From assembly GCF_036099295.1 (NCBI RefSeq), contig NZ_CP107976.1, positions 2,604,001 through 2,668,000 of the forward strand: DNA of 64,000 nucleotides, read 5' to 3'. A program made the translations under genes and the position numbers. A model generated the notes under the pieces. That model searched no databases, was not told the DNA's origin, and saw only the letters and a program-made list of their open reading frames with translations. This stretch comes from Streptomyces sp. NBC_00358 (GTDB taxonomy: Bacteria > Actinomycetota > Actinomycetes > Streptomycetales > Streptomycetaceae). Shown here piece by piece: positions 1,268-30,265 of the stretch. Position 1 is the stretch's first letter. Each line of letters begins with the position of its first letter.

Positions 1268-1666
1268 CTACGCCAGCACGGCGAAGCCGTCGAGTTCGAC
1301 CAGCGCCTGTTCGTCCCACAGGCGCGTGGCGCCGATGACGGCCATCGCGGGGTAGTCGCGGCCCGCCAGCCGGCGCCAGATGCGGCCCAGTTCGGGAGCG
1401 TGGACCCGGTAGTCGGCGATGTCCGTGGCGTAGACCGTGACCCGGGCGAGGTCCGACGGTTCTCCGCCCGCGGCGCGCAGCGCGGTCAGCAGGTTGGTCA
1501 GCGCCCGCTCGAACTGCAGGGGCAGGGTCTCCCCCACCACCTTCCCGTCCACGTCGAGCGCGGTCTGGCCGGCGAGGAAGACAACCCGGGAGCCGGTGGC
1601 CACGACGGCGTGGGAGAACCCCGCGGGCGGGGAGAGTTCGGGCGGGTTGACGCGATCGGCGGTCAT
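1268..1666 (-). CDS. RidA/YjgF/UK114 family protein
   Basis: A 132-residue Rid-family protein; the length matches the one-domain trimeric family, whose best-known members hydrolyse enamine/imine intermediates. The middle (ALTNLLTALRAAGGEPSDL) and the YPA segment are typical. However, the Arg that follows Pro-Ala in active RidA enzymes is Met108 here, so canonical imine deaminase activity is doubtful. It is the last gene of the run that begins with the acyl-CoA dehydrogenase, and its ATG overlaps the stop of a 12-codon ORF (see the 35-bp repeat). A role in handling enamine products of aminobenzoyl-CoA breakdown is inference from context. Confidence 0.85.
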   Translation of the reverse strand: MTADRVNPPELSPPAGFSHAVVATGSRVVFLAGQTALDVDGKVVGETLPLQFERALTNLLTALRAAGGEPSDLARVTVYATDIADYRVHAPELGRIWRRLAGRDYPAMAVIGATRLWDEQALVELDGFAVLA

Positions 1667-1785
1667 TCGCCCCTCGCTTCAGGTGTCTGTCCGGCGGTCA
1701 TGCGCGCCCCGCTTCTGGTCTCTGTCCGGCGGTCATGCGGACCCCGTTCCCTGTGCTCGGTGGACGGTCACGCGGGCCCCGTTTC
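1657..1785 (-). repeat. 35-bp tandem repeat carrying start/stop overlaps
   Basis: Minus-strand start codons occur exactly 35 bp apart at 1771 (GTG), 1736, 1701 and 1666 (ATG, the Rid start). Each is followed by ACCG(C/T)C and preceded by a purine-rich GAA(A/G)CGGGG-like box that could act as a ribosome-binding site. The first box lies inside the last codons of the acyl-CoA dehydrogenase gene and the last start belongs to the Rid gene. The array therefore looks like successive duplication of one gene junction. Confidence 0.9.
1663..1771 (-). other. relay of three 12-codon ORFs coupled by 4-bp overlaps
   Basis: Within the 35-bp repeat, three minus-strand ORFs of 12 sense codons follow each other: 1771-1733, 1736-1698 and 1701-1663. 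The acyl-CoA dehydrogenase stop overlaps the first start (GTGA), and each ORF's TGA overlaps the next ATG (ATGA). The last stop overlaps the Rid ATG. The second and third peptides both begin MTAGQ (third: MTAGQTPEARGE). Because 12 codons plus a stop minus a 4-nt overlap equals 35, the period itself preserves termination-reinitiation coupling. Whether the peptides accumulate is unknown. Confidence 0.75.
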
Positions 1786-2925
1786 CCTCGTCGGCTCGGT
1801 CCGCCGGTACAACTCCTTCGCGATGACGGCCCGTTGAACCTCGCTGGCCCCCTCGTAGATGCGCGGCGCGCGCACCTCGCGGTAGAGGTGTTCGAGGAGA
1901 TGGCCGCGGCGCAGGGCGCGGGCGCCGTGCAGCTGGACGGCCGCGTCGACGACGTACTGGGCCGTCTCGGTCGCGAGCAGCTTCGCCATCGCCGCCCGCC
2001 GGGGAACGTCCGATGCCCCCTCGTCGTAGGCCGCCGCGGCCGCGTACACCATGAGGCGGGCCGCCTCGGTGCGCAGCGCCATCTCGGCGACCTGGTGGGC
2101 CACGGTCTGGAGGTCCTTCAGCGGGCCGCCGAACGCCTCGCGCCGGGCCGTGTGCGCGAGGGTCGCGTCGAGCGCCGCCTGTGCCATGCCGACGGCGAAG
2201 GCTCCGACGCTCGGCCGGAAGAGGTTGAGGGTGTTCATGGCCACCCGGAAGCCCTGGCCGGGTTCGCCGAGGACGTCGTCCGCCGTGACGGGTACGGCGT
2301 CGAAGGCGAGTGCGCCGATGGGGTGCGGGGAGAGCATGTCGAGCGGACTGCCGGTGAGGCCGGGGCGGTCGGCCGGGACGAGGAAGGCGGTGACGCCGCG
2401 GGCTCCCGCGTCGGGCGCGGTCCGGGCGAAGACGGTGTAGAAGTCGGCCTCGGGGGCGTTGGAGATCCAGCACTTCTCGCCGGTGAGCCGCCAGCCGCCG
2501 GTACCGGTACCGGTGCCGTCCTCGTCCGCCCGGAGCGCCAGCGCGGCCGCGTCCGAACCCGCGCCCGGTTCGCTCAGCGCGAAGGCGGCCACGGCGCCGC
2601 CGTCCGCGACCCGGGGCAGCCAGTGCTCACGCTGCGCCGCGGTGCCGTACGCGTGGACCGGGTGGGCGCCGAGCCCCTGGAGGGCCAGTGCCGTCTCGGC
2701 CTCGGTGCAGACCTGGGCCAGCGACTCGCGCATCAGGCAGAGGTCCAGGGCTCCGGAGGTGAACAGGCGGGAGAGCAGGCCGAGTCGGCCGAGTTCGGCG
2801 ACCAGCGGACGGTTGACGTGGCCCGGCTCGCCCTTGTCGGCCAGTGGGCGCAGGTGTTGCGCGGCCAGCGTGCGCAGCTCGGCACACCAGGCGATCTGCC
2901 CCGGATCAAGCGAGAATGCGGTCAT
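1768..2925 (-). CDS. acyl-CoA dehydrogenase
   Basis: A 385-residue FAD enzyme expected to desaturate an acyl-CoA thioester. The family's ALSEPGAGSDA segment (flavin and substrate contact) lies mid-protein, and the C-terminal YEGASEVQ holds the usual catalytic glutamate. The start is the ATG at 2925, preceded by GGAGAG; a frame reaching 3129 would run through the divergent promoter and is rejected. The gene is divergent from the CoA ligase and followed by the 35-bp relay and Rid gene. In this cluster it probably oxidises the alicyclic CoA-ester produced by the monooxygenase/reductase; that assignment is inference. Confidence 0.88.
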   Translation of the reverse strand: MTAFSLDPGQIAWCAELRTLAAQHLRPLADKGEPGHVNRPLVAELGRLGLLSRLFTSGALDLCLMRESLAQVCTEAETALALQGLGAHPVHAYGTAAQREHWLPRVADGGAVAAFALSEPGAGSDAAALALRADEDGTGTGTGGWRLTGEKCWISNAPEADFYTVFARTAPDAGARGVTAFLVPADRPGLTGSPLDMLSPHPIGALAFDAVPVTADDVLGEPGQGFRVAMNTLNLFRPSVGAFAVGMAQAALDATLAHTARREAFGGPLKDLQTVAHQVAEMALRTEAARLMVYAAAAAYDEGASDVPRRAAMAKLLATETAQYVVDAAVQLHGARALRRGHLLEHLYREVRAPRIYEGASEVQRAVIAKELYRRTEPTRETGPA

Positions 2926-2957
2926 TGCCCGTCCTCTCTCCCCGTCGGACGCCTCCC

Positions 2958-2986
2958 ACACTATCGCGAACCGTTGACTGTCGTCA
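2958..2986 (-). promoter_or_regulatory. promoter of the acyl-CoA dehydrogenase with conserved box
   Basis: On the minus strand, TGACGA (2986-2981) is followed after 17 nt by TAGTGT (2963-2958), a good -35/-10 pair about 30 bp from the start codon. The block TGACGACAGTCA and GATAG recur with identical spacing at 8972-9000, upstream of the enoyl-CoA hydratase. The shared block extends past the -35 hexamer, so it may also be an operator for the adjacent PaaX-type regulator; that is inference. Confidence 0.6.
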
Positions 2987-3001
2987 CCAACACGATACGC
3001 T
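2974..3001 (+). promoter_or_regulatory. divergent promoter of the CoA ligase
   Basis: TTGACT (2974-2979), a 16-nt spacer and TACGCT (2996-3001) point toward the ligase start at 3053. The -35 overlaps the shared TGACTGTCGTCA block of the opposing promoter, so one protein bound here could control both directions. Confidence 0.5.
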
Positions 3002-3052
3002 CCTTGTGCGAGCCCACCACGACGCCCACCCAGGCAAGGGGGCGAACCCTCC

Positions 3053-4900
3053 ATGGACCCTGTGGACCCTGTGGATCCCGTCGATCCCGCGGGCACCCCG
3101 GGGCCGGCACTCTCGGCCCACGTCGACACCTTCCCGCGCGACCATCTCCCGCCCCCCGAACAGTGGCCCGAGCTCCGCTTCGAGCTTCCCGGGCTGCGCT
3201 ACCCCGACCGGCTGAACTGCGCCGTCGAACTCCTCGCGGACACCGGCCCCCAACGCCCGGCGTTCCGCACCCCGTCCGGCGCCCCGTGGACGTACGGACA
3301 ACTGCGCGCCCGGGTCGACCGCATCGCCCATGTGCTCACCGGTGAACTGGGCGTCGTCCCGGGCAACCGGGTGCTGCTGCGCGGCCCGACCACCCCGTGG
3401 CTGGCCGCCTGCTGGCTGGCGGTGCTGAAGGCGGGCGCGGTCGCCGTCACGGTGCTCGCCCAGCAGCGGCCGCACGAACTCGGCACCATGTGCGGGATCG
3501 CCCGGGTGACCCATGCCCTGTGCGACATCCGCTCGGTCGACGACCTGGTCAAGGCGGAGATCCCCGGGCTGCGGGTGACGACGTACGGCGGTGACGCGCC
3601 CGACGATCTGCTGCTGCGCATCACCGGCGCTCCCGACGAGCCCTTCGACGCGGTGGACACCGCCGCCGACGACGTGGCGCTGATCGCGTTCACCTCGGGA
3701 ACCACCGGACGGCCCAAGGGCTGCATGCATTTCCACCGCGATGTGCTGGCGATAGCGGACACCTTCTCGAAGCATGTGCTGCAGCCCCATGAGGACGATG
3801 TCTTCGCGGGCAGCCCTCCTCTGGGGTTCACCTTCGGGCTCGGCGGTCTCGTCGTCTTCCCCCTGCGCGCCGGCGCCTGCTCCCTGCTGCTCGAACAGGC
3901 GGGCCCCAAGCAGTTGTTGCCCGCGATCGCCGAGCACCGGGTCTCCGTGCTGTTCACCGCGCCGACCGCCTACCGGGCGATGCTGGCGGAACTGGCGGAA
4001 CCGGACGCGCACGACATCGGGTCGCTGCGGCGCTGCGTCTCCGCGGGCGAGAACCTGCCCGCGGCCACCTGGCGGGACTGGCACGCGCGGACCGGGCTCG
4101 GCATCATCAACGGCATCGGCGCCACCGAGCTGCTGCACATCTTCATCTCGGCCGCCGACGGGGACATCCGCCCCGGTACGACGGGGGTACCGGTGCCGGG
4201 CTGGCAGGCGCGCGTGGTCGACGCCGACGGGACCCCGGTGCCGGACGGTGAGCCCGGGCTGCTCGCCGTACGCGGACCGGTCGGCTGCCGGTATCTCGCG
4301 GACCCCCGGCAGCGGGAGTACGTGCGCGACGGCTGGAACATCACCGGCGACACCTACGTCCGCGACCCCGACGGCTACTTCCGCTACGTGGCCCGCGCCG
4401 ACGACATGATCATCTCGGCCGGGTACAACATCGCGGGCCCCGAGGTCGAGGACGCGCTGCTGCGGCACCCGGACGTCGTCGAGACGGCGGTCGTCGGGCG
4501 GGCCGACGAGGCACGCGGGCAGATCGTGGTGGCCTACACGGTGGTCAAGGAGGGCGCCCGCCGGGACGCCGAGGCGCTGCGCTCCTTCCTCAAGTCCGAG
4601 CTGGCACCGTACAAATGCCCCCGCGAGATCGTCTTCCTGGACGCGCTGCCGCGCACCGCCACGGGCAAGCTCCAGCGGTTCCGGCTGCGGGAGGGAACCG
4701 GTGCCGACACCGGTGGTGGTTCCGATGCCGATACCGGTGGTGGTTCCGATGCCGATACCGGTGACGGTTCCGGTGGTGGGACCCCTGGTGATTCCGGTGG
4801 TGAGGGCCCGTCGGCCGCCGCGTCCGGGGTGCCGGTCCCGGCACCCCAGGGCGACTTGTCCACGGTCGGCGATCCAAGTGATCTTCGCGCACTAGAGTGA
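3053..4900 (+). CDS. AMP-forming CoA ligase, 2-aminobenzoate/benzoate type
   Basis: A 615-residue adenylate-forming enzyme. The ATP-binding motif FTSGTTGRPKG lies near residue 215, an INGIGATE motif near 355, and the GD...RADDMIISAGYNI hinge region near 430-450. PRTATGK, near residue 537, carries the catalytic lysine. The overall pattern matches aryl-CoA ligases of the benzoate/2-aminobenzoate type, and the neighbours point to anthranilate, but substrate is not provable here. Two oddities are a DPV-repeat N-terminus (MDPVDPVDPVDP) and a Gly/Asp/Ser-rich tail of about 60 residues after the catalytic domain, built from 24-bp DNA repeats. Its stop overlaps the PaaX start (GTGA). Confidence 0.85.
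   Translation: MDPVDPVDPVDPAGTPGPALSAHVDTFPRDHLPPPEQWPELRFELPGLRYPDRLNCAVELLADTGPQRPAFRTPSGAPWTYGQLRARVDRIAHVLTGELGVVPGNRVLLRGPTTPWLAACWLAVLKAGAVAVTVLAQQRPHELGTMCGIARVTHALCDIRSVDDLVKAEIPGLRVTTYGGDAPDDLLLRITGAPDEPFDAVDTAADDVALIAFTSGTTGRPKGCMHFHRDVLAIADTFSKHVLQPHEDDVFAGSPPLGFTFGLGGLVVFPLRAGACSLLLEQAGPKQLLPAIAEHRVSVLFTAPTAYRAMLAELAEPDAHDIGSLRRCVSAGENLPAATWRDWHARTGLGIINGIGATELLHIFISAADGDIRPGTTGVPVPGWQARVVDADGTPVPDGEPGLLAVRGPVGCRYLADPRQREYVRDGWNITGDTYVRDPDGYFRYVARADDMIISAGYNIAGPEVEDALLRHPDVVETAVVGRADEARGQIVVAYTVVKEGARRDAEALRSFLKSELAPYKCPREIVFLDALPRTATGKLQRFRLREGTGADTGGGSDADTGGGSDADTGDGSGGGTPGDSGGEGPSAAASGVPVPAPQGDLSTVGDPSDLRALE
4703..4774 (+). repeat. three in-frame 24-bp repeats in ligase tail
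   Basis: Three copies of a 24-bp unit (4703-4726, 4727-4750, 4751-4774) encode an eight-residue A-D-T-G-G-G-S-D type repeat in the C-terminal extension of the CoA ligase. Copies 1 and 2 differ at one base. The unit is in frame, so copy number could change without breaking the gene. Confidence 0.85.
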
Positions 4901-15960: not shown

Positions 15961-16672
15961 GGGGCCTGGCGGCCCCCAGCCACCAGCCTGCGCCGCACCC
16001 CGCCGGGCCCCTTGGCCCCTCACCGGGGGCGGTCCCGGCCGGGCCCGCGACCCGGGCGTCGCCGACCCGGGCGTCGCCGACCCGACCGGAGTCCCGCTGC
16101 CCCGGGTGGGGCGGGCCGCGTATCCCCGGCCCGGGCCCATGGCCACGGGGCGCGGGCGGGGCTCGTCCGGCTGCGGCGCCGGTGGGGGCTGGGCGCGCAG
16201 TTCCCCGCGCCCCTTACCGGGCCCTCCGGGCCCGGCCGGGCCGGCGGTGCCCAGCCCGGGTGCGGAACCGAGGTATCCCCTCGGCCGCGGACGGGTGGGG
16301 GCGGGCCGCGCAGTTCCCCGCGCCCCTTACGGGGCCCACCGGACCGTGCACGTCCGCGCGGTGCCCCATGCCCGCGCACCGCGCGCGGGTATCCCCCTCA
16401 CCGCGGACATGTGGGGGTCGGGCGCGCCGTTCCCCGCGCCCCCTGGGGGGCCCACCGGACCGTGCACGTCCGTGCGGTGCCCCATGCCCAGGCACCGCGC
16501 GCGGGTATCACCTTCACCGCGGGCCGGTGGGGGGCGAGCGCGCCGTTCCCCGCGCACCTTGCGGGGCTCCCGCCGGGGCCGGCGACTACCAGTCCCGGTG
16601 GGGGCGCGGTTCGGATGTCGGTCCGGTGGGGGCTGGGCGCGCCGTTCTCCGCGCGCCTTCGGGGGCCACCCG
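15961..16672. repeat. GC-rich repeat array between convergent genes
   Basis: About 710 bp without a credible gene. A unit of about 115 bp recurs: a GGTATC(A/C)CC start recurs near 16273, 16387 and 16504 (a partial match lies near 16112). Each unit contains GGTGGGGG, then GCGC(A/C)GTTCCCCGCGC, then GGGGCCCACCGG-type sequence; five copies of the GTTCCCCGCGC core lie near 16200, 16313, 16427, 16545 and 16645. The last two are degenerate. Long open frames through it arise from the GC bias. It separates the NAD-kinase-like gene from the convergent pnkp gene and could serve as a folded terminator region. Confidence 0.75.
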
Positions 16673-30065: not shown

Positions 30066-30240
30066 GCCCGGACGGTCGTACGACCGGATTCGCGCCCCCT
30101 CCCGACGGCCGTACGGCAAGAATCCCCCCCGCCCGACGGTCGTACGGCCGGAATCCCGTCCCCCTCCAGGTCCGGGTACGACCGGAAGCCCGCCCCCTCC
30201 CGGTCGGCGTACGACCGGAATCGCGCCCCCTCGCGGTCCC
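30066..30240. repeat. five tandem copies of a palindromic ~33-bp repeat
   Basis: CGTACG centres at 30077, 30110, 30141, 30175 (degenerate, GGTACG) and 30208 are spaced 31-34 bp. Consensus: GACGGTCGTACGACCGGAAT followed by CGCGCCCCCTCCC; the first copy contains the perfect 14-bp palindrome CGGTCGTACGACCG. The array lies between the convergent SDR and vWA genes, with no spacer-like variable sequence, so it is not CRISPR. Confidence 0.85.
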
Positions 30241-30265
30241 GGCGCCGACCCGGCCCGGCCCGGCC

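Follow-up and report, generated by a model that had tools for sequence, protein, structure and literature searches.

Why should the stop codon of one gene be joined to the start codon of the next by a chain of 12-codon open reading frames (ORFs), where annotation pipelines would show just an intergenic gap? The chain lies between an acyl-CoA dehydrogenase (ACD) gene and a Rid/YjgF-family gene, presumably transcribed together, of Streptomyces sp. NBC_00358. Coordinates are positions in the window, the 64,000-nt stretch of DNA that was analysed (NZ_CP107976.1, 2,604,001–2,668,000, forward strand). The features of the locus are as follows, with duplex energies given for the Shine-Dalgarno (SD) sequence of each start.

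1768..3129, minus strand: ACD gene, longest ORF, with PF00441, PF02770 and PF02771 (Pfam); the true start is probably further inside
about 1806–1772, minus strand: degenerate unit 0 in the ACD 3′ tail (CGGCGGACCGAGCCGACGAGGGAAACGGGGCCCGC), carrying the SD of the first rung
1667..1771, minus strand: array of three 35-nt tandem units (TRF), single copy in the genome
1733..1771, minus strand: mini-ORF 1, VTVHRAQGTGSA then stop; GTG start within the GTGA of the ACD stop; SD duplex −8.9 kcal/mol
1698..1736, minus strand: mini-ORF 2, MTAGQRPEAGRA then stop; ATGA overlap; SD duplex −9.5 kcal/mol
1663..1701, minus strand: mini-ORF 3, MTAGQTPEARGE then stop; ATGA overlap, with its stop inside the Rid start; SD duplex −8.5 kcal/mol
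1268..1666, minus strand: Rid/YjgF-family protein, 132 aa, PF01042 Ribonuc_L-PSP (Pfam); last cistron of the relay; SD −9.2 kcal/mol

The ACD gene ends in ...GGG CCC GCG TGA, and its TGA stop (1770–1768) is the entry to the relay, giving GTGA at 1771. On the minus strand, 12 codons lead from GTG 1771 to the TGA at 1735–1733 within ATGA 1736, 12 from ATG 1736 to a TGA within ATGA 1701, and 12 from ATG 1701 to a TGA within ATGA 1666, which is the Rid start. The ACD stop and the Rid start are joined in this way by four 4-nt GTGA/ATGA overlaps (1771, 1736, 1701 and 1666) with spacings of 35, 35 and 35 nt. A sequence-only reading had described these starts, 12-codon ORFs and 4-nt overlaps, and the description is exact, both by direct reading of the sequence and by TRF, which gives a period of 35, 2.6 copies, 87% matches and a score of 131 at 1657–1746. 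The identities among array units are 24/34, 22/34 and 30/35 (24/34 for unit 1 versus unit 2, and 30/35 for unit 2 versus unit 3), and unit 1 is more diverged than units 2 and 3. Unit 0 is a fourth, degenerate copy in the ACD tail that is closest to the array units in its SD half. A search of the whole genome (9.3 Mb) found the array at one place only.

Short overlapping ORFs can arise by chance, and in 1.26 Mb of the host genome we counted 31 chains of at least three of them, compared with ~59 expected from an equal-sized Markov-3 sequence. Because high-GC DNA yields so many by chance, we dropped the raw count of ORF chains as a significance test. A sharper comparison is the 12 nt that follow each start, which match at 12/12 positions between two successive starts of the window array, while null chains of at least two steps never exceed 8/12. 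This repetition is not explained by chance, and the equal spacing and the two real flanking genes add weight. The SD match at each rung start is almost as strong as at typical Rid starts, with rung duplexes of −8.5 to −9.5 kcal/mol versus medians of −10.3 for directly coupled Rid starts and −3.7 for background RTGs, and at each coupled step the SD lies inside the terminal part of the upstream ORF. These energies were computed with an assumed anti-SD tail. A structured RNA element was ruled out, since the array strand folds worse than shuffled sequences (z of +2.4, less structured). A frameshift fusion of ACD and Rid was also rejected, as the ribosome would have to slip several times and the sequence shows no evident slippery heptamer. 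Scans for sigma-70 promoters and terminators, which span some of the Streptomyces promoter types, detected neither a promoter nor a terminator in the array.

The explanation that we favor, with a probability of about 0.74, is that tandem duplication at a translationally coupled junction produced the ladder incidentally, and that the ladder was retained since it left the coupling unbroken. ACD and Rid have an ATGA or GTGA in common in most Streptomyces, and given this overlap and its SD, Rid is probably translated by termination-reinitiation. A 35-nt segment with an SD, an RTGA and a few codons was duplicated and then duplicated again, as the sequence and the sister species described below show. 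Since 35 leaves a remainder of 2 on division by 3, every copy forms an ORF of 12 codons whose start lies in one overlap and whose stop lies in the following one, and a ribosome leaving ACD would be handed on rung by rung, each with its own SD, instead of meeting a 104-nt untranslated gap. Duplications of 1 mod 3 would break the coupling and disappear, those of 0 mod 3 would give an N-terminal extension, and the number of rungs would drift between species. In native E. coli gene pairs, reinitiation is down by 40–80% at +14 nt and is nearly abolished at +38 nt, gaps of about 20 nt nearly abolish coupling in both E. coli and H. volcanii, and the final 15 nt of the upstream gene are enough for coupling (PMC10666635). 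Thus, a 104-nt untranslated gap would probably uncouple Rid, and rungs of 12 codons would be long enough to pass the ribosome on.

To follow the junction across the genus, we drew Rid relatives from 393 Streptomyces genomes and from genome contigs, with one genome per species, and parsed 189 distinct ACD-Rid junctions, for which the gene calls are approximate. Coupling is direct in 170 of the 189: 162 have a direct 4-nt overlap (18 of these lengthen Rid by 3–6 nt), and 8 have a direct overlap together with an in-frame Rid extension of 18–42 nt. Another 11 are complete relays, so that coupling is kept in 181/189. The remaining 8 are uncoupled or were not parsed, and five of them (L029, L072, L198, L206 and L212) are true gaps, which means that coupling is not an absolute requirement. 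The spacings of the relays, in nt, are 35, 35, 35 in the window (L001); 41, 35 in L002; 35 in each of L003 and L006; 26 in each of L009, L013 and L017; 35, 35, 38 in L020; 41 in L068; 11, 38 in L050; and 146 in L189. Beyond the KELY of ACD, the tail of that protein varies, from just 1–2 codons up to degenerate repeats tens of codons long (e.g., L090, L102 and L086). The ACD-Rid junction looks like an expansion hotspot.

A DNA tree built without the junction, with SH-aLRT as its only support measure, groups the window with L002, L003, L006, L031 and L004 (SH-aLRT 88, inside a clade of 100). Comparing related genomes for junction copy number, as the sequence-only reading had proposed, gives 3 rungs in L001, 2 in L002, 1 each in L003 and L006, and 0 each in L031 and L004. 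This variation among sister species, and the simulation described below, support that reading's claim that a coupled junction was duplicated repeatedly. The aligned ACD tail of L031 is unit-like, ATGGCCGAGCAG...TCCGTATGA (also given as ATGGCCGAGCAG...TCCGT), and lies 12 codons ahead of its TGA; it may be a homologous unit, consistent with a rung that became fused into ACD. The three-rung ladder of L020 sits in a separate clade and its unit sequence differs from that of the window, so it arose independently. The spacers of the sisters L068 and L074 differ by 1 nt in length: 41 nt give a relay in the former, and 42 nt give an in-frame N-terminal Rid extension in the latter. This pair shows both coupled outcomes next to each other.

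The same range of 0–3 rungs among sister species could instead reflect a tuned rheostat, akin to the tunable reinitiation ladder that the sequence-only reading inferred, in which each hand-over loses some ribosomes and the number of rungs sets the Rid:ACD ratio, either under selection or adjustable by slippage. The overlap and SD are kept on all rungs, and losses would plausibly compound geometrically if fewer than 100% of ribosomes reinitiate. However, rung number is not conserved, and its variation among sisters disfavors a strict set point; the relay geometry is automatic for any duplication of 2 mod 3, and the SDs of the rungs could recruit new ribosomes that cancel the loss. We consider a rheostat unlikely. 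We are similarly doubtful of the wider proposal that serial mini-ORF ladders at actinobacterial coupled junctions gain and lose rungs by slippage and serve as a heritable dial for the ratio of neighboring products, the translational equivalent of phase variation through promoter repeats. The natural series of 0–3 rungs between one gene pair lends itself to determining how much is lost at each reinitiation step, a value that is in dispute.

The 12-mers might also have been selected as leader or signalling peptides, in that every rung is open and most start with M/V-T or M/V-S. But codon 2 is largely set by the TGACC overlap, there is no conservation past it among L001, L002, L003, L006 and L020, and codon usage in the window's rungs is not coding-like. 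We regard selection on the peptides as highly improbable, and the 12-mers are probably without function of their own.

Similar ladders occur at other gene pairs. In the 1.26 Mb of host genome surveyed for chains, there are two more tandem relays at coupled starts. The one at 4.12 Mb (L282:18710-18878, G000:C1, plus strand) has spacings of 104, 32 and 32 and links an ORF of 971 codons to a DUF4913 gene; its units are 32 nt, and its 104-nt ORF holds older fused units. The one at 5.71 Mb (L312, G000:C1:5707191-5707411, minus strand) has 2.4 copies of a 92-nt tandem unit between two ABC-transporter permease genes. Its two full units are each a coupled mini-ORF and are 99–100% identical, so they are recent, and the 92-nt unit is found only at this site, save for one weak partial match.

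We also ran pattern scans for doubled start motifs over about 300–390 Streptomyces genomes and read the context of the fetched loci. The scans gave six relays in which the first RTGA holds the stop of the upstream gene and the second holds the start of a gene, with periods of 23, 29, 32, 32, 35 and 35 nt; the relay at L345 joins a MarR-family gene to an ABC ATPase gene. They also gave seven in-frame cases, three of which are one locus (about five independent). Among the fetched loci, no doubled coupled start had a period of 1 mod 3. The doublets at L323, L327, L386 and L390 (and by eye L347 and L349) were set aside as ordinary overlaps in which the first ATG is within the upstream gene's own frame. 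At a contig start (L351:1-150, G084:C180), 35-nt tandem units ATGACCGCCGGGGAGCCGCCGGGCG(T/C)CTCGGCCGC lie ahead of a 263-aa ORF.

What duplication alone would produce was simulated by placing random tandem duplications of 20–60 nt across the RTGA of 144 real direct junctions. A perfect one-rung relay resulted from 99% of the duplications of 2 mod 3, an in-frame extension of the downstream protein from 99% of those of 0 mod 3, and uncoupled genes from 98% of those of 1 mod 3. Thus, a relay follows automatically when an ATGA/GTGA junction is duplicated by a length of 2 mod 3, without any special design. The sequence-only reading had noted that a 35-nt period preserves coupling, and its arithmetic turns out to be a case of a general rule, as the surviving duplications are 2 or 0 mod 3 and never 1.

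This automatic geometry is also what one would expect of a neutral tandem repeat, with the ORF chain an unused consequence of the 35-nt period and Rid initiating independently. The SD of Rid is reasonable by itself (−9.2 kcal/mol) and could serve for initiation with no relay at all. In addition, GC3 in the window's mini-ORFs is low (0.55–0.64), and chance makes short ORF chains common in the host genome. For a neutral repeat, however, periods of 1 mod 3 and of 2 mod 3 should be equally frequent at coupled starts, and we see 0 of the former versus about 12 independent cases of the latter (four at ACD-Rid, six elsewhere and two in the host genome). The two-sided p is about 5e-4, to be read with care because the hypothesis was sharpened during data collection, and with a count of independent events that comes from one tree (SH-aLRT only) and a handful of motif searches. 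Retention of coupling at 181 of the 189 ACD-Rid junctions also speaks against neutrality, which we think improbable. Neutral-decay probabilities based on the observed divergence multiply to about 0.03 if independence is assumed, which weakly suggests constraint on unbroken rungs. Under our preferred explanation of duplication at a coupled junction, the lack of 1 mod 3 periods among survivors would be the mark of selection for coupling. The rule is simple, that tandem duplications at coupled starts survive at 2 or 0 mod 3 and not at 1 mod 3, and it would allow selection for translational coupling to be read straight from genome sequence.

The sequence-only reading knew of no described example of such a ladder, which is wrong in view of mycobacterial MIRUs, a precedent for the coupling architecture even though they are dispersed (PMC12548453, PMC7884335). 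MIRUs are short repeats at start codons whose ORF is coupled to the following gene at −4 nt (PMC12548453), and several lie between senX3 and regX3 in mycobacteria (PMC7884335). The ORFs of the window array are likewise coupled to a flanking gene through overlapping stop and start codons, and this shared architecture would fit insertion of a dispersed, mobile MIRU-like element at the junction (PMC12548453). Unlike the interspersed and apparently mobile MIRU family, however, the array occupies one genomic locus, and we do not class it as a MIRU; its units resemble the adjoining ACD tail and Rid start, which points to local origin from its own junction. Insertion of a mobile element is thus very hard to credit. 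Our literature search on tandem repeats and translational coupling, mostly outside subscription papers, returned nothing beyond MIRUs.

The array has the same 4-nt overlap at all four steps as known ATGA/GTGA termination-reinitiation pairs (PMC6728339, PMC10666635), but those make one step between two genes, whereas the array has three successive 12-codon rungs. Bicistronic designs and short "nonsense" uORFs with an internal RBS similarly use an ORF with a functionless peptide to feed ribosomes to the next start (PMC13255528, PMC12548453), but these are engineered and usually have one ORF, whereas the array is natural and serial. By its sequence features, the array is best called a putative locally generated, serial variant of termination-reinitiation coupling.

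Three other repeats occur in the window. At 4698–4803, 24-nt tandem repeats make up coding sequence in the 3′ part of an AMP-ligase gene (3053–4900, plus strand), with a period divisible by 3. A 116-bp repeat is present in 3.4 copies at 16181–16567, where a crude gene finder places no gene within 600 bp, and five 33-bp units with GTACG cores lie between two convergent genes at 30068–30265.
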